DNA of 15,992 bases from Spirochaetales bacterium. Its GTDB lineage: Bacteria; Spirochaetota; Spirochaetia; SZUA-6; DRHE01. Shown one piece after another: positions 3,404 through 15,856 of the stretch; within the stretch, counting starts at the first letter, position 1, and every line of letters begins with the position of its first letter. The position numbers were made by a program, and so were the translations under genes. The notes under the pieces were generated by a model, which saw only the letters and a list, made by a program, of their open reading frames with translations, was not told the DNA's origin and searched no databases. Location: NCBI GenBank assembly GCA_023136785.1, contig JAGLQP010000007.1, forward strand, positions 1 through 15,992, written 5' to 3'.

Positions 3404-3526
3404 ACTCCTCCCCAGCTCAAAACCAGGGTTGCGACTCATGAGCTTATTCTAATCCAAGTGTAAACCTCTGAGGCGGTGCGGATCAATAGCTGGACGGACA
3501 GTGCTGTTTCCGCTACATTTCATTAT

Positions 3527-4054
3527 ATGAAACAGTTCTTTGCCATTGTACCCCTATGTGTCGCCCTTGTTTTAGCAGGATGCGCCAGCGGTTCCGGTGA
3601 TTACGAATATCAGGACATCGATGTCCTGATAGAGGAGGCTTCCTGGGAGACGGGGTCTGTTCTCTGGAACAGCTACAAAGATCTCGAAACCGGGCCGATG
3701 AGAAACCTGGCGGTGTACTATTTCCTCGAGAGCGGTGAAGTCAGTCCCCTCAGCGATACCCTTATAGAAGGACTCACCACCCAAATCGCCAACACCGTGA
3801 GCTATGAAGGTATGCAGGTTCGCGTGGTCAGCCGCACGAACCTGGATCAAATTCTCCAAGAGCTCGCCTTTCAAAGCTCGGACCTTGTGGACGCGGTGAC
3901 CCAGATTTCTGTCGGCAAGCAGCTGGGAGCGGAGATCGTTGTCACAGGAACCATTAGGCCCATCGATCGGGGAAAGAAGTTCAACGTCCAGTTGATCGAG
4001 GTGGAAACCGGGGTGGTGCTGGGCGGCTTCATCATGTACCTGATTCAGGAGTAG
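3527..4054 (+). CDS. CsgG/FlgO/LpoB-like outer-membrane lipoprotein
   Basis: This is a 175-residue exported lipoprotein. The first 19 residues are a lipoprotein signal peptide ending in lipobox LAGC, with Cys19 the lipidated residue. The mature part looks like the FlgO/CsgG/LpoB superfamily: a region that assembles on a short-lived set of names (LIEGLTTQIANTV), then VRVVSRTNLDQILQELAFQSSDL and VGKQLGAEIVVTGTI, ending in LIEVETGVVLGG. Members of this superfamily help outer-membrane secretion, flagellar assembly or activation of penicillin-binding proteins; which role applies here is not visible. The frame is open upstream to a GTG at 3476, but that start would bury the signal peptide, so ATG 3527 is preferred. 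No Shine-Dalgarno is seen before this ATG. Confidence 0.8.
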   Translation: MKQFFAIVPLCVALVLAGCASGSGDYEYQDIDVLIEEASWETGSVLWNSYKDLETGPMRNLAVYYFLESGEVSPLSDTLIEGLTTQIANTVSYEGMQVRVVSRTNLDQILQELAFQSSDLVDAVTQISVGKQLGAEIVVTGTIRPIDRGKKFNVQLIEVETGVVLGGFIMYLIQE

Positions 4055-4317: not shown

Positions 4318-5349
4318 GTGGTCATCTACAGCAAGGGATATCGGGGTGGATTGGAGGAGTATGGTATCCTCATTCCGGTACGGGACAGCAAGTTCAGAAC
4401 AACCTTCGAGCAGTTGCTATCCCACCCGGTTCTGGGTCTTCGCCAGGCGGAGTGGCATCTCGGGCACTCGGGGCAGTCCATTACTCGGGAGGATCTCGAC
4501 CGCGTCCACACCGAGGGCTACGTGAACAGACTGTTTTCCCAAGGGCTCGAGGGGGAGATCATCCGCACCTTCGAGTTGCTGGACAGTAATGGTGAGTATC
4601 ATCGCTACGATCCTGCGCAGGCAACTCGCCGCCTGAACAAACTCCTCGAGCGTACCTTGTACAGCATCGCTGGGGATTATCAGTGCTGCAAAGTCGCTCT
4701 GGACAAGGGTTTCTGCTACTATTTCGGTGGCGGGGCGCATCACGCCCAACCCGATCACGGGAAGGGATTCTGTCTGCTCAACGACATTGTGATTGTGCTT
4801 CGCAAAGCCCAGGCGGAAAAGCTGATCCGCAACGCCTGGGTGATCGATGTAGATGCCCACAAGGGTGACGGCACCGCCGCGATAACCCAAAACGATGATA
4901 CCATCAGAACCCTGAGCATCCACATGGCCCGGGGTTGGCCTCTGGATGAAGCGGAGTTCGACAGCCAGGGCCGTCGGAATCCCTCGTTCATTCCGAGTGA
5001 TGTGGACATACCGATTGACTCGGGGCAGGAGGATTTGTACGTCCCTCGGCTACAGCAGGGTCTGCTCACATTGGCTGGGATGTCCTCTCCTGATCTCGCT
5101 TTGGTGGTCAGCGGCGCCGATCCGTATGAACACGACGAGCTTCCTTCCACCCGGCTGCTTCGTCTGTCTAAACGGCAGATGATGGAGCGGGACATCCTGA
5201 TCTACTCCTTCCTCAAATCCCGGGGTATTCCGGCGGCCTACCTGATGTCCGGCGGTTACGGCGAGAAAATCTGGGAGGTGTACTACCAGTTCGTGGAATG
5301 GGCCCTCCTGGACAGATTAGGTTACTCCTCCGCCGATCCCCTTACCTGA
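4318..5349 (+). CDS. Histone deacetylase family (AcuC-like) zinc amidohydrolase
   Basis: This 343-residue cytoplasmic enzyme belongs to the arginase/deacetylase superfamily; bacterial members remove acetyl or other acyl groups from lysine residues, polyamines or small amides. The active-site set is complete: GGGAHHA with the catalytic pair His141-His142, GFCLLND, VIDVDAHKGDG with zinc ligands Asp179 and His181, SGADPYEHDEL with the third ligand Asp268, and SGGYGE with Tyr314 in the position of the transition-state tyrosine. The usual HHGDG of the third motif is HKGDG here. GTG 4318 is chosen because AAGGGAG lies 4 bases before it. The gene stands alone on its strand, with 263 bp before and 112 bp after, so context does not reveal the substrate. 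Confidence 0.88.
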   Translation: MVIYSKGYRGGLEEYGILIPVRDSKFRTTFEQLLSHPVLGLRQAEWHLGHSGQSITREDLDRVHTEGYVNRLFSQGLEGEIIRTFELLDSNGEYHRYDPAQATRRLNKLLERTLYSIAGDYQCCKVALDKGFCYYFGGGAHHAQPDHGKGFCLLNDIVIVLRKAQAEKLIRNAWVIDVDAHKGDGTAAITQNDDTIRTLSIHMARGWPLDEAEFDSQGRRNPSFIPSDVDIPIDSGQEDLYVPRLQQGLLTLAGMSSPDLALVVSGADPYEHDELPSTRLLRLSKRQMMERDILIYSFLKSRGIPAAYLMSGGYGEKIWEVYYQFVEWALLDRLGYSSADPLT

Positions 5350-5392: not shown

Positions 5393-5420
5393 GGAACCTC
5401 AGGCTTCTCTTTTTCGACTA
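5393..5420 (+). promoter_or_regulatory. ECF-sigma-type promoter of the envelope-stress operon
   Basis: GGAACC (5393-5398) and CGACTA (5415-5420) are separated by exactly 16 bp. This fits the classic ECF pattern of a GGAAC -35 box and a CG-containing -10 box. It lies 41 bp before the GTG of the Spy-like gene, and the second gene downstream encodes an ECF sigma factor, so positive autoregulation is the simplest reading. The boxes are seen; recognition by this sigma factor is inferred. Confidence 0.65.
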
Positions 5421-5461
5421 ATAGAATGAAAATACCCTTTGGGAAGTGAGGAGGTCTTACC

Positions 5462-5917
5462 GTGAGGAGACTGGCTGTCATCTGTTTGTTGGGATTGATC
5501 GCTGTTGGCTTTGCCTACAGTCAGGACTGGGATAACCCCCAGATCTTGAAACGTCTGGATTTGGGTGAAGAGGAAATGGCGAATATAAGAGAGGTCTTCG
5601 AGAAGACAGAAAAGGAGATTCGAGAAGCGCGATTGGAAATCGATATTCTTAAAGCACAGCTGCGGAAGCTGCTCTTCCAGCAGCAGGTCAACATGCATGA
5701 GGTCGAGCGGTTGCTGCGGGATAGCTTGGAGTGGGAGATGAAGGAACGAATGGCCCAGCTTCAGCGCCAGGTACGGCTGCGAACCCTGCTCGGTGACATG
5801 AAATATGCGCGATTGATGGAAACGGTTGAGACAAGGCGGCGAGTGCAGGAAGAAGAAAAGGAGAGCGCTTTGCGTGCGCGTGAGGAAAAGGAACAAGCCG
5901 GCCGTGCACGGCCGTAA
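5462..5917 (+). CDS. Spy/CpxP-like periplasmic helical protein
   Basis: This 151-residue exported protein starts with a signal peptide (RRLAVICLLGLIAVGFAYS, likely cut after Ser20). The mature part is almost wholly helical and charged, with NIREVFEKTEKEIREARLEI and DILKAQLRKLLFQQQVNMHE, resembling the periplasmic heavy-metal-resistor/Spy/CpxP group, which act as small chaperones or stress sensors. The exact LTxxQ motif of Spy is absent. The C-terminal tail is rich in Arg, Glu and Lys. GTG 5462 is supported by GAGGAGG 7 bases upstream. It is the first gene after the ECF promoter, and its 3' end overlaps the sigma gene by about 44 bp, so the two are translated together. A role in sensing or relaying misfolding to the sigma/anti-sigma pair is inferred from position. 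Confidence 0.7.
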   Translation: MRRLAVICLLGLIAVGFAYSQDWDNPQILKRLDLGEEEMANIREVFEKTEKEIREARLEIDILKAQLRKLLFQQQVNMHEVERLLRDSLEWEMKERMAQLQRQVRLRTLLGDMKYARLMETVETRRRVQEEEKESALRAREEKEQAGRARP

Positions 5918-6494
5918 AGCCGCGGCGGGTGCTCTGCCGAACGAAGAATCGGAGGACTTTATCCTGATTCGGCGCTTCTTGCGCACCGGGGACCCGAGGG
6001 AATTCCGGACTCTGGTGGAGAGGCACCTGCCCTCGATCAGGAGACTTCTCTACACCCTGTTCAACGGACAGCGGGAAGAGATGGAGGACGCGGAGCAGGA
6101 GATCGTTCTCAGTCTTTTTCAAAGATTGAAGGATTTCCAGTTTCGCTCCTCATTCCGTACCTACTTCTATCGGCTTGCTCGAAACCGGGGGATTGACTTT
6201 CTACGGAAGAAGCGCAGTCAGGATCGGACAGTGGCCAGACTGAGACTGGATCTGTGGAATCGGGAGCTCCCCGGTCCGGAGGAGCAGGTAGTGCACCGGG
6301 AGGAAACGGAGACCTTGCTCGCTGTTTTTCAAACTCTCCCTTCGAAGGACCGCCAGCTGATCCTGATGAAGGATGTAGATGGATTCACTCTGGATGAGAT
6401 GGCGGACATACTGGATGTGCCGATCGGCACCGTCAAGTCCCGCCTGCATCGGGCTCGGGAGAAACTCGCCAAACATATAAGAGGTAGAAGATGA
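5874..6494 (+). CDS. ECF RNA polymerase sigma factor (sigma-70 family)
   Basis: The protein of about 206 residues has the two ECF domains. Region 2 spans roughly residues 44-114, with EDAEQEIVLSLFQRLKDF and SSFRTYFYRLARNRGIDFL. Region 4 spans about 152-206, with LPSKDRQLILMKDVDGFTLD followed by EMADILDVPIGTVKSRLHRA, the promoter -35 reading helix. There is no ATG near the N-terminus; GTG 5874 has GGAG 10 bases upstream and is preferred, while GTG 5904 would also work and the frame is open back to a TTG at 5826. All choices overlap the end of the Spy-like gene. Its stop overlaps the anti-sigma start by 4 bases. It should recognise the GGAACC/CGACTA promoter upstream of the operon. Confidence 0.92.
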   Translation: MRVRKRNKPAVHGRKAAAGALPNEESEDFILIRRFLRTGDPREFRTLVERHLPSIRRLLYTLFNGQREEMEDAEQEIVLSLFQRLKDFQFRSSFRTYFYRLARNRGIDFLRKKRSQDRTVARLRLDLWNRELPGPEEQVVHREETETLLAVFQTLPSKDRQLILMKDVDGFTLDEMADILDVPIGTVKSRLHRAREKLAKHIRGRR

Positions 6495-7132
6495 AAGGGC
6501 GTAAAAGGATATCCTGTAAGGAATGCCGAGCGGGAATGCAGGATATATTTGATCGAGTCAATCTTGTCTCGGCAACGGATAGTGAAAGCATTCTGAAATT
6601 TATGCCCCGGGAGTTCGCGGAGCACCTGGAGCAGTGCAACGAATGCAGGGAATTTTTCGAAACACTTGCCGATTTCGCTCCCGCCCTACTCGAGCAGCTC
6701 GATCAGGCTGTCCACGATCGTCTCACTCCAGAGCTCGCAGTTATTCTGGACCGGCAGAGACAGCCGGCGGTCCCGCAGGAGCGAAATCGGGCCGGCCAGG
6801 TCATCCCCGCAGCCATTGGAAAAACTGTCCGCTGGTTGTTTGGTCCCGCCCGGAGACCGGTGGCTGCGCTGCGTTGGGCGTCCCTGTCCCTGGCGGGTTT
6901 GCTCCTCGTCTCGGGGATCGGATTTCGAGTATACACATCCTTCAGAACCAACCGGACGATCGAGCAGGAGGTCGATAGAATCATCGAGCAGATCTATCAG
7001 GAACCCCTGCTTGCTGGAATCGAAACCGCCCTGATTCGTACCCGGGCGGATATTTCCGACTACGTGGAGGATCTGAGCAAAGCCAATGACCGTTGGCTCG
7101 AAGAGATAACCCCCGAATCGCTCCTCGACTGA
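6491..7132 (+). CDS. Membrane anti-sigma factor with zinc-binding ZAS-type N-terminus
   Basis: This 213-residue protein begins inside the sigma gene (ATGA overlap). The N-terminal 60 residues hold a HX3CX2C zinc motif (His45, Cys49, Cys52, in EHLEQCNECREFF) preceded by CKEC (Cys9, Cys12), which can supply the fourth ligand: the anti-sigma fold that holds an ECF sigma inactive. One membrane helix lies at about 129-148 (WASLSLAGLLLVSGIGFRVY) with basic residues on the cytoplasmic side, leaving about 65 residues outside that look helical and charged and could receive the stress signal. Arrangement directly after the sigma gene is the standard partner pattern. Release of the sigma factor by redox change or regulated proteolysis cannot be told apart here. 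Confidence 0.85.
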   Translation: MKGRKRISCKECRAGMQDIFDRVNLVSATDSESILKFMPREFAEHLEQCNECREFFETLADFAPALLEQLDQAVHDRLTPELAVILDRQRQPAVPQERNRAGQVIPAAIGKTVRWLFGPARRPVAALRWASLSLAGLLLVSGIGFRVYTSFRTNRTIEQEVDRIIEQIYQEPLLAGIETALIRTRADISDYVEDLSKANDRWLEEITPESLLD

Positions 7133-7134
7133 AG

Positions 7135-7185
7135 CTGCTCCACTGTCCTTGATTTCCCCAATGATTCCCCGTACTCTTGGAGCAG
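7135..7185 (+). promoter_or_regulatory. Inverted repeat in the leader of the macroglobulin gene
   Basis: CTGCTCCA (7135-7142) and TGGAGCAG (7178-7185) are perfect 8-base arms separated by 35 bases in the 64-bp gap after the anti-sigma gene. The second arm directly abuts the ribosome binding site AGGAGGAGGGG, so RNA pairing could modulate translation of the large lipoprotein relative to the regulators upstream. There is no T-run, so it is unlikely to be a terminator. Confidence 0.3.
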
Positions 7186-7196
7186 GAGGAGGGGTC

Positions 7197-10100
7197 ATGA
7201 ACAGCCGACGTGCAGGATTTCCCGCCGCAGCAGGAGCAGTGTTGCTCGTCCTTACCGTACTGTCCGGTTGTCTCGGGGATATCGGCGGCTCTGGTAGAGG
7301 TCGTTCCGCCGCTCTCGATACGAAGGACCTCCTATTCCCCGAGCAGGCCGCCGCCGGTGCTGTTTCTGAAAGAGCCTTCCAGGTTTCGGAATACGCCCCG
7401 GCTGGGGTCGTGCCCTGGCAGAATATAGAGGGAGGTGTTTGGATCCTGTTCAGCGAGCCGGTCATCCCGGCCGGCAAATTGGGAAAACCCGCAACAGAAT
7501 CCGAGGTGGTGCAGATTCATCCAGAGGTCGAGGGGATCTATCGCTGGTACGGCTCTCGCCTTCTGAGCTTCGAGCCTACCTCCTCCCTGTTTCCAGCAAC
7601 CGAATATACGGTGGTCTTGAGCAAAGAGCTCACCTCTTTGAGGGGAGATTCCCTGGAAGGGATGAACGCCTTCCGGTTTCGCACCCCCCCGCTCCAACTG
7701 CTGTCCATGGACCCTTCCGGAACGGATGTGCCGCCGGAATCCTGCCGCGAGCTGCTGCTGCATTTCAACTTTCCTGTCGAGCTTGCCACCATCGGCCGCT
7801 ATATCAAGGTCGAGGCGGGGGATCGTCACTTTCCCTTTGCTGCAGTTTATGCCGAAGACCTTCGAGAATCGGGAGAGGTATCCGGGACTGATTACAGCCG
7901 AGGTATCCTGCTCAAGATGAAGGAAGAGCTTCCCTGGGACACGGATGTTGTGGTACGGGTGCTGGAGGGTGCCCGGCCGGGAGAGCAGAACTACGGTACC
8001 GACGTCGAGCAGCGGCTCAGCTTTCACACGCTGGAACCCTTCCGCCTGGAATACGGGGAGGTATACGATTGGCTGCCCAGCGTCGAAGCGGGCCTGATCT
8101 TCAACCATCCCGTAGCCGAACAGGATCTGGGTTCCTATCTCGACGTGCAACTGCCGGGCTACGAGCTTCAGGGAAATCTCGAGGTCTACGGCAGCTCCGT
8201 GTATCTTAAGAATCTTCCCGTCGATTTCGAGTCTACCTTTTCGCTCTCTATTGCCAAAGGACTTCGGGATATCTACGATCAGGGCTTTGCCTACGACGAG
8301 ACTGTCGAGTTGGAGGTGGGCCCCGCCGCCAGTTATGTCAATTTCCGAGCATCCGGGAACCGGATTCTCGAAGCGGGATTCCCGCCGCTTGCCGCCGTGG
8401 AGTTTCAAAACGTGATTAGTGGTTCCTTTGCCGCCGGCAAGCTTCTCGAACCTTTCGCCTCTCTGCCTTCCGGCCCCTTCAGCGACTACGCAGTTGATAC
8501 GATCCCCCGCAACACCCGTGTTTTTCGGTTGATCGATTTTGCCCCTTTCCTCAACGAACACGGGAGGGGCAGCGTGTATGCCCGCTGGAGGTTCCAGGTG
8601 CCTTCCTGGTGGTCCGACGAGCCCTATGAGATGGACGCGGATCTGAGGCTGCAGGTCTCCGACATCGGTTTAACCAGCCATATCGCCTATAACCGCATCA
8701 CCGTCCAGGCTGCTTCGCTGTCTACGGGAGATCCGCTACCGGGTGCGGAGATCATCCTCTGGGGCGTTGGGGGCAAGAGCAAATCCGGGCTGAGCACTAC
8801 CAGAGGCATCGTGTCTTTTCCCTTTCAGCCGCGAGAGTTGTCCCGCTTCACCGGCCGATCGGCGAAGAACCTCGAGATCGAGGTTCGCACGGAGAATGAT
8901 CGTCTGGTTTTTCAACCCTACGCCTCCCCCTCGTACAATTGGAACCTCGATGGACCTTTCGAGGCTGAAGAGGTCCAACCGATTACCTATCTCAGCTCCG
9001 ACCGTGGGATCTATCGCCCGGGTGAAACGGTTTCATTCTACGGAATCGATCGGGATTTGAAGTTGGGAGAGCTGAGAAGGCGCGTGGGTGCCTATACGGT
9101 GGAACTGCGCCAGGGATGGTACGGCGATGCGATCCATGCTTCGGTGTCCGGGAGGCTTACCTCCTCGGGCCGATTCTGGGGTACCGTGGAGTTGCCGGAA
9201 AATCTTGATCCGGATGTGTACTTCCTCGTTTACAAACGAAGAGACGGGACCCAGACCCGGGAGGTGCCGCTGCGGGTCGCCTTCTTTCGGAGGGTGAACT
9301 TCTCGGTTGACCTCACCATCCCCGAGGGGATCCACTACATGGGAGAGGATCTCGAGGCCCGGTTCTCCGCAGGGTACCTCGGTGGAGGCTCCCTTACCCA
9401 AGGTCGATGGAGCTACTGGTGGGCGCGGCGTCCCGTTTCATATCAGCCCCCCGATCCGGGGGGGATCTATCGGGGATTCCACTTCGGTGCTTTTCCCGAT
9501 TTCGGGTACTACGACTACTACGAGGACTACTACGAAGAGCTCTCATCGGATGAGGGGGTATTGAGTGGCGACGGAAGAGTTCCGGCCGTTCAAGAGCTTT
9601 CCGATGGTCAACCCGGCAGGGTATACGAGTATACGATTACCGCCACGGTGGAAGATATCGATAGACAGGCCATAACAGGTCAGGCCAGCGCTTCGGTCTT
9701 CACCTCATCCTTGCTCCTTGCCGCAAGACTGACGCAACGGATCGACGGGGAGGAGTCTCTCTACTTCGTGGGCGAACAGGAGCCCTTCTATGTTCAGACC
9801 TGCCTGGTTCAACCCGACGGTCGACCCTACGATCCTGCAGCTGCGGATGTCAATTCGCCTGAGATTCAGGGACGGCTGCTGCGGGAGAACTGGAAGATGG
9901 TGCGGGAGCGCAGTGTCGGAGCACGCATCGACACCCGCTGGGTCCGTGAAGAAATTGAGGAGCAACGTTTCGTTCTGGAGACGGATGGCAAGAAAGATTC
10001 CAGAGGTCGGATCCTAGTCGCCGGGCAGCTAAAGACTTCCCAAGTGGGAGCGTACATCATGGAGCTCAGGGCCGTCGATCGGCAAGGCAGGGAGGCCCTT

Positions 10101-12839
10101 ACCCGTTTTGATTTTTACTCAACCGGCAGCGCCAATGTGCTCTGGCAGCGCTATGACGAGAGGCGGATAGAACTGGTGGCGGATAAACCGGGCTATGCGC
10201 CAGGGGACAGAGCGCAGCTGCTGATAAAAAGCCCGCTCCAGAAAGGAAGTTATCTTCTGACGATCGAACGGGAGGGGATTCTCGAGGAGCGAATACTCGA
10301 TCTTCAGGGAAGCACCGACACCGTGGAGATACCCATTCGAGATGAGCACATCCCGATCGTGTATGTCACCATATCCAGCGCAACCGGCCGCAGCGCACCT
10401 CCGCCGGTCTCACCGGATGTGCCGGATCTGGGCAAACCACGAGGTTGTTTTGGCATGCTTGCCTTGGCCGTGGACGCATCCCGGCGAAGGATCGAGCTGG
10501 AGCTGTCCAGCTCTCAGGAGAGCTATCGCCCGGGCACAGAGGCGGAGATCACGGTTCGGGCGAGCCGGCAGGGGCAGCCCCTGGAGGGAGTGGAGATTGC
10601 CCTGATTGCGGCTGACCGGGGGGTGCTGGACCTGATCGACTATCACCTTCCCGATCCCCTGGCCCTGTTCTACGGGAGCTTCAACTACGGCCATGGTGTC
10701 GCCCACTTCGACAGCCGGGCGCTCCTCCTCGACCCGGTGCTGTGGAAGACCCGGGATCTTCCCGGAGGAGACAAAGAGGGGGAGGAGCTGGATGAGAGTA
10801 CGGTACCGATCCGGAAGGACTTCCGTGCCACCGCCGTATTCGAGCCGGGACTGGTCACCGGGGCGGATGGAACGGCGACGCTTCGCTTCCGTCTCCCGGA
10901 CCAGCTGACCACTTTTCGAACAACCGCCGTGGCTGTGAAGGACGATCTGTTCGGTCTCAGCGAAGATGAGATCCTGGTTCAGAACCCGATCAACGTGCGC
11001 ACGGCACTGCCGAGAAGCCTGCGGGTGGGGGACGAAGCGGAAGCCGGGGTGGTGGTTACCAATCTCGACACCGAGACCAGAACTGTCACCGTTACTCTTC
11101 AGAGCGATCTGCTGGCTATCAGGGGTCGCACCGAAAAGCGGATCAGCCTACAGCCGGGGAAATCGCGGGAGATCGCCTTCAAGCTGGCCGCGGTGGGGGC
11201 GGGACAAGCGACCTTGAGTTTTTCCGTCGACAGCGAAGTGCTGGAGGAGAGGCTGGAAGCCACGGTACCGGTTGCGAAAAGTGTTGTACAGGAGGCCTTT
11301 ACCATCGTGGGGCAGACTGAAGGCAGCGTCCAGGAGGGATTGGTCGTGCCGGAAGAATTCCTCGGTGATCCCGAGGACGGCCTGCATATCACGTTGAACT
11401 CGACCCTGGCCTCCTCGCTGATCGAAGCGATCCGCTTCCTCGAGGGCTATCCCCACGATTGTCTGGAACAGCGCACCAGCAAGCTCTTCGCCTACGTCCT
11501 CTACGACTGGATGCTGGGGCAGGGCGATCGGGTCGACGCGGAGCTCTCCTCTTTGCCTATGTACCAGACCTCCGATGGGGGCATGTCCTTCTGGCAGGAC
11601 CCGGGGTACCGCCGGTCGAATTACTACGTTTCGCTTCGCACCGCTGCCCTGCTTCACCTGACGAAACAACGGGGTTATGCCCTGCCGAGGAAACTCGATC
11701 TGGAAGCCCTGCTGGGCTACCTGAGCAGCGAGTATCAAAGCACCAGCGTCTATCTGCAGAGTTATGCTGTCTATGTTCTTGCGCTTCACGGCTGGAGAGT
11801 CCAGAGGGAGATCCAAGCTCTGCACACGAACAAGAAGAATCTCGGTGTGCTGGAACAGGCCTTCATCGGGCTTGCCTATCACACTCTCGGGGAGCATCAA
11901 AAGGCGGAAGCCGTCCTTGAGGCAATCCGTGCTAACTTAAGGGTCGGCACCCGATCGGTCACTCTGACCGGAACCGTCGGTTCCTGGATCTACTACGGCG
12001 GCGAGCTTCAGGCCAAGGCAGCCCTCCTGCTCCTCTACGGCAGGGTCGAACCCCGGTCCCAGATCGCCCAGGCCTTGGCGGACGATCTGCTCGCCTCAAC
12101 CCGGAAGGGGTACTGGCAAAATACGAGCAATACCGGCTGGATTCTCCAGGCCTTTGCTTCCTACATCGATACCGACCAGGAGAGGCAGACCGACTTTACC
12201 GCCCAGATTCAGCTCGGAGAAACATCTTTTCCTCTTATGGGGTTCTCCGGCGTTTCTAAACAACCCCAAACCTTGTTTATAGCTCCACAAGATCTGATCC
12301 GGGATCAGGAGTGGCTGCCGCTGGTGTTTTCCAAACAAGGCCGGGGCAGGCTGTACTACACGGCAACTCTTCGCTATGCACTGGACGCCGCCCTGGTTGA
12401 CCCCCGGGATGAGGGAATCGGGCTTTTCACCGAAGTTCTGGATTTGGAAGGAAAGCCCGTCAGCGGGCCGCTGCAACTCGGCGATGTCTACAGGATGCAC
12501 TGCGTGATCTACTCGAGCCGCGACCGGGACTTCGTGGCTCTGCGGCTGCCCCTGCCTTCAGGAGCGGAAACGATCGATGGCTCGCTGGCTACTTCCCAGA
12601 TCGTCCGGGGGCAGGAGGAGTACGAGGACCCCTGGAACTTTCGCCCGGTTCAGCGGATCTATGACGATGAAGTCCGGTTCTACTACGACACGTTTCACCG
12701 CGGGAAGAGGGAGGTCTCCTTCCTGTTCCGTGCCACCAAGCCCGGAACCTTTCCCACTCCGCCGGCGACAGCTGAACTGATGTACGAAGAGGAAGTCTTC
12801 GGCCGGACCGGAGGTCGGGAGTTCCGCATCCTTCCTTAG
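7197..12839 (+). CDS. Bacterial alpha-2-macroglobulin lipoprotein (YfhM-like) with CLEQ thioester
   Basis: This 1880-residue protein is a periplasm-facing protease trap. The start ATG 7197 follows AGGAGGAGGGG; an earlier in-frame start at 7149 would spoil the signal. Residues 1-25 are a lipoprotein signal ending in lipobox LSGC (Cys25), followed by Leu-Gly, so it is not a typical inner-membrane retention signal. The next ~1150 residues are repeated beta-rich macroglobulin domains, including the usual YRPGETV motif (Tyr606). A charged flexible stretch at about 1180-1207 (KTRDLPGGDKEGEELDESTV) just before DFRATAVFEPGLVTGADGTA sits where the bait region lies in this family. The thioester YPHDCLEQRTSKLF has Cys1422, Glu1424 and Gln1425 intact, so the trap should bind an attacking protease covalently. 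The helical thioester domain and C-terminal domain follow. At 1880 residues it is longer than the roughly 1650 of E. coli YfhM. The partner pbpC starts 13 bases after its stop. Confidence 0.95.
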   Translation: MNSRRAGFPAAAGAVLLVLTVLSGCLGDIGGSGRGRSAALDTKDLLFPEQAAAGAVSERAFQVSEYAPAGVVPWQNIEGGVWILFSEPVIPAGKLGKPATESEVVQIHPEVEGIYRWYGSRLLSFEPTSSLFPATEYTVVLSKELTSLRGDSLEGMNAFRFRTPPLQLLSMDPSGTDVPPESCRELLLHFNFPVELATIGRYIKVEAGDRHFPFAAVYAEDLRESGEVSGTDYSRGILLKMKEELPWDTDVVVRVLEGARPGEQNYGTDVEQRLSFHTLEPFRLEYGEVYDWLPSVEAGLIFNHPVAEQDLGSYLDVQLPGYELQGNLEVYGSSVYLKNLPVDFESTFSLSIAKGLRDIYDQGFAYDETVELEVGPAASYVNFRASGNRILEAGFPPLAAVEFQNVISGSFAAGKLLEPFASLPSGPFSDYAVDTIPRNTRVFRLIDFAPFLNEHGRGSVYARWRFQVPSWWSDEPYEMDADLRLQVSDIGLTSHIAYNRITVQAASLSTGDPLPGAEIILWGVGGKSKSGLSTTRGIVSFPFQPRELSRFTGRSAKNLEIEVRTENDRLVFQPYASPSYNWNLDGPFEAEEVQPITYLSSDRGIYRPGETVSFYGIDRDLKLGELRRRVGAYTVELRQGWYGDAIHASVSGRLTSSGRFWGTVELPENLDPDVYFLVYKRRDGTQTREVPLRVAFFRRVNFSVDLTIPEGIHYMGEDLEARFSAGYLGGGSLTQGRWSYWWARRPVSYQPPDPGGIYRGFHFGAFPDFGYYDYYEDYYEELSSDEGVLSGDGRVPAVQELSDGQPGRVYEYTITATVEDIDRQAITGQASASVFTSSLLLAARLTQRIDGEESLYFVGEQEPFYVQTCLVQPDGRPYDPAAADVNSPEIQGRLLRENWKMVRERSVGARIDTRWVREEIEEQRFVLETDGKKDSRGRILVAGQLKTSQVGAYIMELRAVDRQGREALTRFDFYSTGSANVLWQRYDERRIELVADKPGYAPGDRAQLLIKSPLQKGSYLLTIEREGILEERILDLQGSTDTVEIPIRDEHIPIVYVTISSATGRSAPPPVSPDVPDLGKPRGCFGMLALAVDASRRRIELELSSSQESYRPGTEAEITVRASRQGQPLEGVEIALIAADRGVLDLIDYHLPDPLALFYGSFNYGHGVAHFDSRALLLDPVLWKTRDLPGGDKEGEELDESTVPIRKDFRATAVFEPGLVTGADGTATLRFRLPDQLTTFRTTAVAVKDDLFGLSEDEILVQNPINVRTALPRSLRVGDEAEAGVVVTNLDTETRTVTVTLQSDLLAIRGRTEKRISLQPGKSREIAFKLAAVGAGQATLSFSVDSEVLEERLEATVPVAKSVVQEAFTIVGQTEGSVQEGLVVPEEFLGDPEDGLHITLNSTLASSLIEAIRFLEGYPHDCLEQRTSKLFAYVLYDWMLGQGDRVDAELSSLPMYQTSDGGMSFWQDPGYRRSNYYVSLRTAALLHLTKQRGYALPRKLDLEALLGYLSSEYQSTSVYLQSYAVYVLALHGWRVQREIQALHTNKKNLGVLEQAFIGLAYHTLGEHQKAEAVLEAIRANLRVGTRSVTLTGTVGSWIYYGGELQAKAALLLLYGRVEPRSQIAQALADDLLASTRKGYWQNTSNTGWILQAFASYIDTDQERQTDFTAQIQLGETSFPLMGFSGVSKQPQTLFIAPQDLIRDQEWLPLVFSKQGRGRLYYTATLRYALDAALVDPRDEGIGLFTEVLDLEGKPVSGPLQLGDVYRMHCVIYSSRDRDFVALRLPLPSGAETIDGSLATSQIVRGQEEYEDPWNFRPVQRIYDDEVRFYYDTFHRGKREVSFLFRATKPGTFPTPPATAELMYEEEVFGRTGGREFRILP
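12744..12771 (+). promoter_or_regulatory. Possible internal ECF-like promoter before pbpC
   Basis: GGAACC (12744-12749), a 16-bp gap and CGACAG (12766-12771) repeat the -35 box and spacing of the operon promoter at 5393-5420 and its first four -10 bases. It lies inside the end of the macroglobulin gene, 81 bp before the pbpC start. The coding context and incomplete -10 box mean chance is a real alternative. Confidence 0.25.
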
Positions 12840-12852
12840 GAGGATGGGATTT

Positions 12853-15123
12853 ATGAGATTCACCAGGCGGCTGATCCTCTTCCTTGCTGCCCCTGTGCTC
12901 ACCGCGGCTCTGATGTACCTTCCCGACCCCGGCTTGCAACAGTGTCGCTTTTCCATGCAGGGAGTGGTCATTGCCGACCGCACCGGGGAACCGCTGTACA
13001 GCATTCCGACTCGGGAGGGCGGGCATCAGCATCGCCTGAGCTGGGGACAGATCCCCGAGTCCGTACGAGAAACCTTTCTTCGCCTGGAAGACAGGCGTTT
13101 CTACAGCCACAGTGGGGTCGATTCTCTGGCGCTGGCTCGAGCCTTGATGGTCAATCTCGGGCAGGGGCGGATCGTCTCGGGAGCCTCGACGATCAGCATG
13201 CAGCTGGCTCGGCTGATCCATCCGCACCGGGGCGGCCTTTTGGGAAAGGCGGGGGAGATCCTTCGAGCCTTGTATTTGGAAGCGAGACTCTCCAAACAGC
13301 AGATCCTAACGCTGTACCTCAACAATCTACCCTTCGGCTACAACACCATCGGAGCAGGGGCGGCGGCCCGGACGTATTTTTCCCGGCCCTTGGGAAAACT
13401 GTCCCGCCCTCAAATACTGCTTCTTGCGATCATTCCCAAAGCACCGAGCCTGTACGATCCCTTCGGCTCTTCAGAAAGCCGCGCTGCCCTTGAGCGCAGG
13501 GCGGTTGCTTTGGCTTCCCTGGTATCGGTTTCCGACCTGGAGATCGCTCAGGCAATGCGCACCTTCCGCCGAGGGGCAGCGGAGATCCACGCCCCTCACT
13601 TTGTACGCTACCTGCTTGGGAGCCTCGAACCGTTGGACCGAAGGGGGCTGAGGCGCCTGGAGATTGCTCGGATCGTTACCACGCTGGATGCAGGGTTGTA
13701 CAGATCCCTCAGCGACAGCATTCGGGACAGACTGGCTGCGATCGGCCGTAGCAGCGCTTCTGAGGACCTCTCCACCACGAGGCGGATCCCGCTGCGCAAC
13801 GCTTCGGCCTTGGTTTTGGACAACCGTGGCGGGGAGGTGCTGGCCTGGGTCGGGTCTCAGGATTTCTTCGACAGGGAGAACGGTGGGCAGATCGACGGAG
13901 TGCGGCTGGAAAGCTCGAGCGGTTCCACCCTCAAACCCTTTCTCTACGCCGCGGCGTTGGAGAAGGGGTACACCGCCTCGACCTTGCTTCCCGATCTGGC
14001 CTTGACCTTCGGAGCCCAGGAGGGCTACCGTCCGGAAAACTTCGATCGACGCAGCCGCGGACTCGTTCGTTTGCGTACCGCCCTGGCCAGCTCGCTGAAT
14101 GTGCCGGCGGTGTACCTCTTATCCCAGATCGGGCTGGAGGCGTTCCTCAGCACCTGCAGAGACCTCGGTATCGAGCTTCCCGAGGACGCGGAGGCTCAAT
14201 ACGGACTCGGAGCGGCAATCGGGAACACGGAGGTGACCCTGTTCGAGCTTACCCGCGCCTTCAGCGTTTTCCCCAACCGGGGGGTCTTACGTCCGACTCG
14301 GGTGATTCTGGAAATACAGACAACGGATGACCGGCGTATTCAGGTTGGGGAGCCCTCCGAGGGAAAACGGGTATTTCGGGAACAGACCGCCTGGCTTGTC
14401 TCCAATATTCTGGCAGACCCGGCGGCCAGAGCAACGGGTTTCGGTACGACTTCCCGGTTCAATACCGCCTTCCCGGCCATCTTCAAATCAGGTACGGCCA
14501 GCGAATACACAAATCTCTGGTGTCTTGGCGCCCTTCCCGAATACACGGTGGGGGTTTGGGCGGGCAACTTCGACGGCCGTCCCGCCTTCGGTACCACGGG
14601 CAGCTCCCTTCCAGCCGCCGTGGTTGTGGGGGTCCTTGAGGATCTCAGCCGGGGAGGAGGGGAACAGCGGGACACACCGTCTTGGGGCGAGCCGTCCGGA
14701 CTCACCCGGGTTCGAATCTGCACCAAAACCGGGTACCGGGCTTCAACGAACTGTCCGGCAACGCGGGAGGAGTACTTCTTGGCGGGTTCGGTGCCGGAGG
14801 AGGCCTGTCCCGTCCATGGGCAAGGAAAGGACATGGAAGAACTGCTCTTGGAGGTTGTACTGGGGGAGTCGAAACAGCCCCGGGTTCTCTTCCCACGAAA
14901 CGGCGCGGTGTTCTACCGGGATATAGGTGCCGCGGCGGAGGTCCAGACGATCCCGGGGTGGATCGCCTCCGATCCCGAGGATCGGATCGTGGTCCGCTTG
15001 AACGGCCGGGTTCTTGCCGCGGATGACCCCTCTCGACCGTTGCTGCCCGTACATCCCGGCCGCTATCGCCTGGAGGTAGAGGGACGCTTCGGCGGCGATG
15101 CGGTTTCCTATTCCGTTCGTTGA
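12853..15123 (+). CDS. pbpC: Penicillin-binding protein 1C, bifunctional peptidoglycan glycosyltransferase/transpeptidase
   Basis: This 756-residue enzyme of the inner membrane polymerises lipid II and cross-links peptidoglycan in the periplasm. One N-terminal membrane helix lies at about 5-23. The glycosyltransferase family 51 domain shows LEDRRFYSHSGVD (Glu79 catalytic), GASTISMQLARLIHP and LSKQQILTLYLNNLPFG. The transpeptidase domain has SSGSTLKP (nucleophile Ser358, Lys361), SLN (Ser414-Asn416) and KSGTA (Lys545) in place of KTGT. A Cys-containing linker (CTKTGYRASTNCPATREEYF) and a beta-sandwich C-terminal domain at about 674-756, as in PBP1C (BiPBP_C), complete it. ATG 12853 is preferred because AGGAGG lies 9 bases before; the ATG at 12844 touches the AGGAGG. 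Placement right after the A2M gene is the known pairing in which PBP1C repairs wall damage next to the protease trap. Confidence 0.95.
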   Translation: MRFTRRLILFLAAPVLTAALMYLPDPGLQQCRFSMQGVVIADRTGEPLYSIPTREGGHQHRLSWGQIPESVRETFLRLEDRRFYSHSGVDSLALARALMVNLGQGRIVSGASTISMQLARLIHPHRGGLLGKAGEILRALYLEARLSKQQILTLYLNNLPFGYNTIGAGAAARTYFSRPLGKLSRPQILLLAIIPKAPSLYDPFGSSESRAALERRAVALASLVSVSDLEIAQAMRTFRRGAAEIHAPHFVRYLLGSLEPLDRRGLRRLEIARIVTTLDAGLYRSLSDSIRDRLAAIGRSSASEDLSTTRRIPLRNASALVLDNRGGEVLAWVGSQDFFDRENGGQIDGVRLESSSGSTLKPFLYAAALEKGYTASTLLPDLALTFGAQEGYRPENFDRRSRGLVRLRTALASSLNVPAVYLLSQIGLEAFLSTCRDLGIELPEDAEAQYGLGAAIGNTEVTLFELTRAFSVFPNRGVLRPTRVILEIQTTDDRRIQVGEPSEGKRVFREQTAWLVSNILADPAARATGFGTTSRFNTAFPAIFKSGTASEYTNLWCLGALPEYTVGVWAGNFDGRPAFGTTGSSLPAAVVVGVLEDLSRGGGEQRDTPSWGEPSGLTRVRICTKTGYRASTNCPATREEYFLAGSVPEEACPVHGQGKDMEELLLEVVLGESKQPRVLFPRNGAVFYRDIGAAAEVQTIPGWIASDPEDRIVVRLNGRVLAADDPSRPLLPVHPGRYRLEVEGRFGGDAVSYSVR

Positions 15124-15226
15124 GATGGATACTGGCCTCTATCCACAAAACCAGCTATACTAACATACGGAATTAATCGCATGATTGAAACGTCCAATTA
15201 ATAGTCTGGAAAAAGATAGAACCGCC
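15124..15226 (+). promoter_or_regulatory. Leader of the TetR gene with repeats and -10-like box
   Basis: This 103-bp AT-rich gap after pbpC holds TATACT (15156-15161), a good -10 box without a clear -35. AATTAAT occurs twice (15171-15177 and 15196-15202), and TTAATC-GCAT-GATTGA (15173-15188) is an imperfect inverted repeat. TetR proteins often repress their own gene through such sites near the start; the assignment is inferred. Confidence 0.35.
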
Positions 15227-15856
15227 ATGTCCAAAGAGGATGCGTCCGCTCAGGGGAAGATCATCGAAGCCACCATCGAATGTATAGAACGGGAAGGCAT
15301 CCAGGCCGTTACGATTCGAAAGATCGCCAAGTTGGCCGGCGTGAACAGTGCGGCCATCAACTACTACTTCCGCTCCAAGGAGAAACTGGTCGAAGAGGTA
15401 ATGCGGAGCACCGTCGAGAACGTTTTCGAGGACTGGCGGGAAATCATAAACGATGAGAACCGCAGCGTTCGCGAGCGCCTGTTCCTGTTGTTTACCGATT
15501 ACATGGAGGGGGCGATCATGTTCCCGGGAATCTCCAAGGCCCATATTTGGGAACCCCTGATCAACAACAACTACGACTCCCTGTTCGTAAAGATGTTGAA
15601 CGGTTTCTTCCAGGACCTGGTCAAGAAGCTCAAGTTAGAGCTGAAACGGCCCGCTAAAGAGCTGAAGCTGGTGGTGATTCACTTGTTCTCGGCCCTGACC
15701 ATGCCCGTCCTGATGCCGGACCTGTATCGGGAGTTCTACGATGGTAAGACATTTAAGGAAGCCAAGGTACGCCGTGCCCTGATCGAGCATGTTCTTAAGC
15801 TGTACTTTGATGAGGGGAGTGAACCCGGGCAAGCCCAGGATACCGAAGGTGAGTAA
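15227..15856 (+). CDS. TetR family transcriptional regulator
   Basis: This 209-residue DNA-binding protein has the TetR N-terminal helix-turn-helix at about 10-55: IIEATIECIEREGIQAVTIR, KIAKLAGVNSAAINYYFRSK, EKLVEEVM. The remaining helical part is the usual ligand-binding and dimerisation domain, with an aromatic-rich stretch (FPGISKAHIWEPLINNNYDS) that could line a pocket. ATG 15227 is preferred over a TTG at 15185; only a weak purine stretch precedes it. It lies on the same strand as pbpC but after 103 bp with its own likely promoter, so it is probably not part of that operon. The ligand and targets cannot be told; the DUF362 gene lies head-on and ends 5 bp away. Confidence 0.92.
   Translation: MSKEDASAQGKIIEATIECIEREGIQAVTIRKIAKLAGVNSAAINYYFRSKEKLVEEVMRSTVENVFEDWREIINDENRSVRERLFLLFTDYMEGAIMFPGISKAHIWEPLINNNYDSLFVKMLNGFFQDLVKKLKLELKRPAKELKLVVIHLFSALTMPVLMPDLYREFYDGKTFKEAKVRRALIEHVLKLYFDEGSEPGQAQDTEGE

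Follow-up and report, generated by a model that had tools for sequence, protein, structure and literature searches.

Sequence comparisons suggest two neighbouring transcription units, a Spy-headed ECF sigma cassette and an A2M-PBP1C pair, on a contig of a Spirochaetales bacterium

In the CnrYXH system, according to the available parts of the papers describing it (PMC4598750, PMC7689651), a periplasmic helical sensor works through a membrane anti-sigma factor, and in the case of bacterial alpha-2-macroglobulin (A2M) and penicillin-binding protein 1C (PBP1C) the two proteins are taken, in the available parts of PMC4498604 and PMC5764988, as a periplasmic protease trap and a wall-repair synthase, respectively. 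The present work concerns a stretch of DNA of 15,992 nucleotides (hereafter the window), which is one entire contig (JAGLQP010000007.1 of assembly GCA_023136785.1) from a Spirochaetales bacterium whose genome comprises 2,863,504 bases in 745 contigs and is 82% complete, and on which genes resembling those of both systems lie next to each other. These are the genes for a Spy-like exported protein, an extracytoplasmic function (ECF) sigma factor and an anti-sigma factor, together referred to below as the cassette, followed by those for an A2M and a PBP1C (pbpC). A preliminary description of this DNA had viewed them as a single self-activated operon. The names and order of the five genes, as well as their common location on the + strand, are borne out by our analysis, with slight doubts remaining about start codons. 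The single operon is not, and the interpretation favoured here, to which we assign a probability of about two in three, is that the sequences represent two neighbouring transcription units, viz. an autonomous, autoregulated envelope-stress module and an ordinary type I A2M-PBP1C operon, which would have a start signal of its own.

The comparisons covered 7 genomes of the family (G000 to G006, of which G000 is the genome of the window), 26 genomes of the order and 394 genomes of the class. A match to the Spy-like protein is present in 48 of the 394 class genomes (50 matches), and exclusion of four of these matches (a fragment in G004, those in G224 and G234, and the second match in G023) leaves 46 loci in which the region before the gene was examined. 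When the interval from 250 bp upstream to 40 bp downstream of the point where the Spy match begins was searched for the pattern GGAAC-N16/17-CG[AT]C, it was found in 30 of these loci, including all six from the family, and was absent by this fixed rule in the other 16; on the opposite strand of this interval there was no match in any of the 46. By this comparison, the prediction of an ECF-type promoter at positions 5393-5420 of the window is strongly supported. In the 40 loci from outside the family, a sigma factor gene directly follows the Spy-like gene in 34 (in a 35th, L146, it was recognised by eye), and because of this, the arrangement with Spy first and sigma second is regarded as a recurrent pair. 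In 15 of the 40 loci the next reading frame opens 4 bp ahead of the sigma stop codon, and a profile of the family anti-sigma factor has matches in 14 of them; thus, the anti-sigma gene is recognisable by the family profile in fewer loci than is the Spy-sigma pair. The earlier proposal of a self-activated cassette consisting of a sigma factor, an anti-sigma factor and an exported protein is well in keeping with these distributions. An attempt was also made to delineate a regulon using the exact pattern GGAACCN{15,17}CGACTA in the seven family genomes, but it yielded 12 matches, four of which are the cassette promoters, versus 15 for the reversed pattern. Due to this, exact sites other than the cassette promoters are no more frequent than background, and one of them, present in three genomes, looks by eye like coding sequence.

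The start signal of the second unit would be a conserved element located directly before A2M. The preliminary description had envisaged one ECF-type promoter for all five genes and had treated a strong separate promoter or terminator within positions 7133-7196, with no read-through, as contrary to it; the ECF promoter is supported, while its role as the sole promoter is not confirmed, as a conserved promoter-like element is seen in this gap, at 7149-7177. Between the preceding stop codon and the A2M ATG, the genomes G000, G001 and G002 share the sequence CCTTGAT...TTCCCCGTACTCTTGG, and the element contained in it is best read as TTGATT or TTGATC, a spacer of 17-18 nt, and TACTCT. The identity within the element block is 31/34 between G000 and G002 and 28/35 between G000 and G001, compared with 50% and 48%, respectively, at the fourfold-degenerate sites of A2M; the corresponding binomial values (4.5e-7 and 1.1e-4) are optimistic, because the block was picked after the alignment was seen. 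The 16-mer TTCCCCGTACTCTTGG (7165-7180 in the window) occurs exactly once in each of these three genomes and no further exact copy of it was found across the 26 genomes of the order; three copies with one mismatch were seen elsewhere, two in G020 and one in G011, compared with 2 for the reversed control. The counterpart in G005 reads TTGCGC-N17-TACTGT and is followed 6 nt later by the A2M ATG, before which no well-spaced ribosome-binding site is recognised by eye, as would suit a leaderless transcript start. Further, in G002 a reading frame of 160 amino acids, and in G001 a gene for a GSDH-family dehydrogenase, is present between the cassette and A2M, and these end about 25 bp ahead of the element. 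Despite the intervening gene, the element has stayed beside A2M in both genomes. A strict ECF site was not found before A2M in any of 17 loci, for which the region examined ran from -500 to +250 relative to the first position of the open frame of A2M (only 114 bp upstream in the case of G012).

The separateness of the two units is also suggested by their distribution in relatives. In the family, G003 and G006 contain the cassette but no A2M match, and in G004, where fragments of the cassette lie near a contig end, there is a match of 45 residues (E 2e-9) which is not counted as an A2M. Outside the family, no A2M adjoins the Spy-like gene in any of the 40 loci, 29 of which extend at least 3 kb after Spy; 26 of these 29 belong to the 34 loci in which the sigma gene directly follows. 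In the reverse direction, no sigma, Spy or anti-sigma gene was found upstream of A2M in the 11 loci from other families that offer 4 kb or more of sequence there, by a single-sequence search with the proteins of the window, from which distant relatives could escape; the remaining six of the 17 non-family A2M loci (L005, L036, L038, L045, L047 and L048, with G008 and G018 among them) have less than 4 kb upstream. The co-occurrence of the two units within the class is likewise weak, A2M being present in 23 of the 48 genomes with Spy versus 149 of the 394 genomes overall (one-sided p 0.085, uncorrected for kinship). The A2M-pbpC pair itself, as had been described, is found in the window and recurs elsewhere, a PBP gene following closely upon A2M in the same orientation in 13 of 20 A2M loci; three of the other seven loci end before there is room for it. 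The presence of an element belonging to A2M, the cassettes lacking A2M in two family members, the non-family Spy loci and the lack of strict ECF sites before A2M all argue against a single operon of five genes, and these comparisons of sequences give no sign that linkage of the cassette with A2M is required. At this level, the analysis shows the genes themselves, the ECF site and the element before A2M, both of which are conserved, and, by comparison, the independence of the two units.

If two units are present, the ECF promoter at 5393 would drive the first of them, from which the Spy-like protein, the ECF sigma factor and a membrane anti-sigma factor of the ZAS type would be produced. The anti-sigma factor would hold the sigma factor at the membrane, and the Spy-like protein, acting on the anti-sigma factor, could serve as a periplasmic sensor or chaperone, by which damage in the periplasm would be sensed or buffered. 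The sigma factor, when released, would raise its own cassette, presumably by reading the conserved site noted above. The second unit would comprise A2M, as the protease trap, and PBP1C, as the wall-repair synthase, both read from the conserved sigma70-like promoter at 7149-7177.

A number of observations weigh against this interpretation, and they are considered here along with the alternatives to which they relate. In the five-gene stress operon proposed initially, envelope damage would free the sigma factor, which would raise the cassette and also A2M and PbpC, the latter two through read-through; the element before A2M would then provide a basal supply only. Consistent with this, the genes are on the same strand, the A2M ATG at 7197 starts 64 bp past the anti-sigma stop at 7132, and no terminator-like site was found between the anti-sigma gene and A2M in the window. 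A cassette that is never next to A2M-pbpC in relatives had been named as an outcome contrary to the proposal, and this is not what is seen: the two are neighbours in each of the four genomes of the family that carry a full A2M (G000, G001, G002 and G005, from two genera). Both units also act in the envelope, as is known for their families. A relaxed form of the ECF pattern is found before A2M in 3 of the 17 loci, and it has two matches in the window, which are inside the anti-sigma gene. In another family, in three genomes of one genus (G030, G055 and G090; 3 of the 3 seen), A2M lies 20-27 kb downstream of the cassette and has the same orientation (L171, L134 and L166, with L041 and L042), an arrangement which may reflect chance or an old linkage. 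Lastly, genomic SELEX (systematic evolution of ligands by exponential enrichment) with Escherichia coli lists, in the available part of PMC5493296, a binding peak of the RpoE holoenzyme inside yfhM, upstream of pbpC; this peak, which is of type D (intragenic) and was obtained in vitro, may be an independent hint of an ECF polymerase touching the yfhM locus. Since the neighbourhood is kept in four of four genomes and no terminator-like site is seen, read-through from the stress promoter may add to A2M-pbpC expression. A specific form of this idea, which we regard as doubtful, is that in this family the widespread Spy-ECF-ZAS module has come to lie in cis ahead of A2M-PBP1C, so that read-through due to sigma factor released under stress, on top of a basal promoter, would make the trap and the synthase inducible by envelope damage, for which the Spy-like protein would be the sensor. 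The five-gene operon is likewise unlikely. Strict contiguity is seen only in G000 and G005, and in the other two of the four genomes an extra gene intervenes, in one case with TTGACT-N17-TATTTT before it (by eye). To this are to be added the cassettes of G003 and G006, the element conserved with A2M, the 17 loci without a strict ECF site and the weak class co-occurrence.

The neighbourhood could also be neutral, the two unrelated units having been joined once in an ancestor of the two genera and then retained through descent alone. Such a neutral history is one version of the two-unit interpretation, with which its odds overlap, and taken by itself it is possible but on the unlikely side. The genes between the units differ between G001 and G002, and, beyond the anti-sigma gene, each gene family 3' of the cassette is shared by two families at most (among the first 8 frames of at least 110 amino acids within 9 kb, in the fetched stretches), as would suit such a history. 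However, there would be no need for this neighbourhood to persist if it were due to chance, and it has been kept over a deep divergence, the window and G005 being 48% identical in Spy and 57% in A2M, while the gene upstream of the cassette differs (a histone-deacetylase-like gene in the window and a B12-binding gene in G005). The element before A2M could, alternatively, be an operator or a leader element instead of a promoter. By eye it agrees with the sigma70 consensus in 7 of 12 positions and was therefore not reported by a promoter scan that required 9 of 12; due to this weak match, its designation as a promoter draws upon its conservation, spacing and position. Its conservation, moreover, runs into the would-be spacer (TTCCCCG). 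Nevertheless, the distance between TTG and TACT[C/G]T is 17-18 nt in all four genomes (by eye) and the -10-like hexamer of G005 is placed 6 nt before the ATG, and an operator or leader function appears quite improbable to us. Two transcription units remain the interpretation that we favour.

The coordinates of the promoter elements and genes in the window are listed in Table 1.

Table 1. Predicted promoter elements and genes of the cassette and the A2M-PBP1C pair in the window
Feature	Position	Strand	Remarks
ECF-type promoter GGAACC-N16-CGACTA	5393..5420	+	Before the cassette; comparison and alignment
Spy/CnrX-like exported helical protein, 151 amino acids, GTG start	5462..5917	+	PF13801 sub-threshold; signal-peptide-like N-terminus by eye
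ECF sigma factor	5874..6494	+	Start at GTG 5874, 5880 or 5904; no ATG near
Anti-sigma factor	6491..7132	+	HxxxCxxC at 6623-6646; one likely membrane helix at 6866-6925 by eye
Sigma70-like promoter element TTGATT-N17-TACTCT (putative)	7149..7177	+	Directly before A2M; conservation
Type I bacterial alpha-2-macroglobulin lipoprotein	7197..12839	+	CLEQ thioester at 11460-11471; LSGC lipobox
Bifunctional penicillin-binding protein, PBP1C type	12853..15123	+	Transgly and Transpeptidase above cut-off

The Spy-like protein matches the Metal_resist family (PF13801) with an E value of 0.004, which is below the cut-off for acceptance, and of the 39 Spy homologues that were scanned, 22 have a match to this family at E<=0.01, the best of them at 1.8e-9. 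Searches of solved structures with two Spy profiles gave no significant match, the top PDB entry being Spy (3oeo, E 0.12). The sigma factor shows matches above cut-off to Sigma70_r2 (PF04542), Sigma70_r4_2 (PF08281) and TIGR02937, and it contains both regions 2 and 4; SigW is the closest among its solved relatives, which also include CnrH (4cxf). In the anti-sigma factor the HxxxCxxC motif, which reads HLEQCNEC in the window, is retained in the alignment of G000, G001, G002 and G003, the gene in G005 being partly masked; the sole family match of this protein is to the NCBIfam model 'antisigma' (E 6e-6, below cut-off). The anti-sigma factor of G006 (L090:7028-7438) is without the N-terminal part bearing this motif. 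The A2M has domains above cut-off (PF00207, PF07703 and PF17973; MG10, bait-region and A2M), and its solved relatives are YfhM and a putative inner-membrane lipoprotein A2M; the thioester domain model PF07678 had no match in the genome search. A scan of the genome contigs for A2M led to one confirmed locus, at 22% identity, which was not used. The best NCBIfam match of the PBP is PBP_1c (TIGR02073), with 472.9 bits versus a cut-off of 494.2, hence short by 21 bits, and its active-site motifs are EDRRF, SxxK, SxN and KSG.

With regard to the junctions between these genes, the anti-sigma ATG (6491) and the sigma stop codon (6494) overlap by 4 bp, and pbpC begins at ATG 12853 (or 12844), after the A2M stop at 12839. 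The overlap of about 44 bp between Spy and sigma, as given in the preliminary description, holds only if the sigma factor starts at the first of the three GTG codons in Table 1. At this junction in 40 loci, an ATG is near in 15, only GTG or TTG in 18, and none of these three codons in 7, the unusual-start sites being 5826-5920 in the window and those in L034, L035, L153, L154, L155, L157 and L161. It is possible that the sigma factor is started from a near-cognate CTG, ATA or ATC codon, or by re-initiation after the Spy stop. A programmed frameshift between Spy and sigma was also considered and it was rejected, because the frame relation of the two genes varies among relatives (+1, -1 and 0).

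Upstream of the cassette, the window encodes an LpoB/CsgG-like lipoprotein (3476-4054) and the histone-deacetylase-like protein mentioned above (4318-5349), both of which are beside the cassette in G001 as well; LpoB is described in Pfam as an activator of peptidoglycan synthase. A TetR gene (15185-15856) follows pbpC in the window. In G003, about 5 kb past the cassette (L089:11906-14835), there is a TetR-like frame together with two frames which by eye resemble a TolC-type channel and a membrane-fusion protein.

The significance of these comparisons is that they separate a weakly supported operon of five genes from a recurrent ECF module, probably self-activated, that is headed by a Spy-like gene. 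If it is true that the cassette feeds A2M-pbpC, this would provide a directly testable stress input for a bacterial A2M; in a narrow look at the literature we did not come across any work on the control of an A2M operon of bacteria by an ECF sigma factor. Among the described systems, CnrYXH of Cupriavidus metallidurans (periplasmic CnrX, anti-sigma CnrY and ECF sigma CnrH) resembles the cassette in the window in being an ECF system of three genes, one of which encodes a helical protein of the periplasm, but the window differs from it in having the order Spy-sigma-anti-sigma. CnrX, which we take to be a member of the Metal_resist family, has His residues among its metal ligands. In the alignment of six family Spy sequences, apart from the start residue, none of the His, Cys or Met positions is invariant. 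According to the available part of PMC7689651, CnrX is a transmembrane protein, whereas the Spy-like protein of the window is apparently soluble and exported, and the metal ligand Met123 of CnrX has no invariant counterpart in the six sequences, due to which metal sensing by the Spy-like protein is not supported. The envelope-stress systems of the SigW-RsiW and RpoE-RseA type, each with an ECF sigma factor and an anti-sigma factor, resemble the window in that its sigma factor is nearest to SigW among solved chains and in the membrane anti-sigma factor with the ZAS motif HisXXXCysXXCys (available part of PMC4598750), but the window differs in that its cassette is headed by the exported Spy-like gene. 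Lastly, the type I yfhM-pbpC operon of E. coli similarly consists of a lipoprotein with a CxEQ thioester followed by PBP1C (available parts of PMC4498604 and PMC5764988), but in the family of the window this pair is located just behind an ECF cassette.

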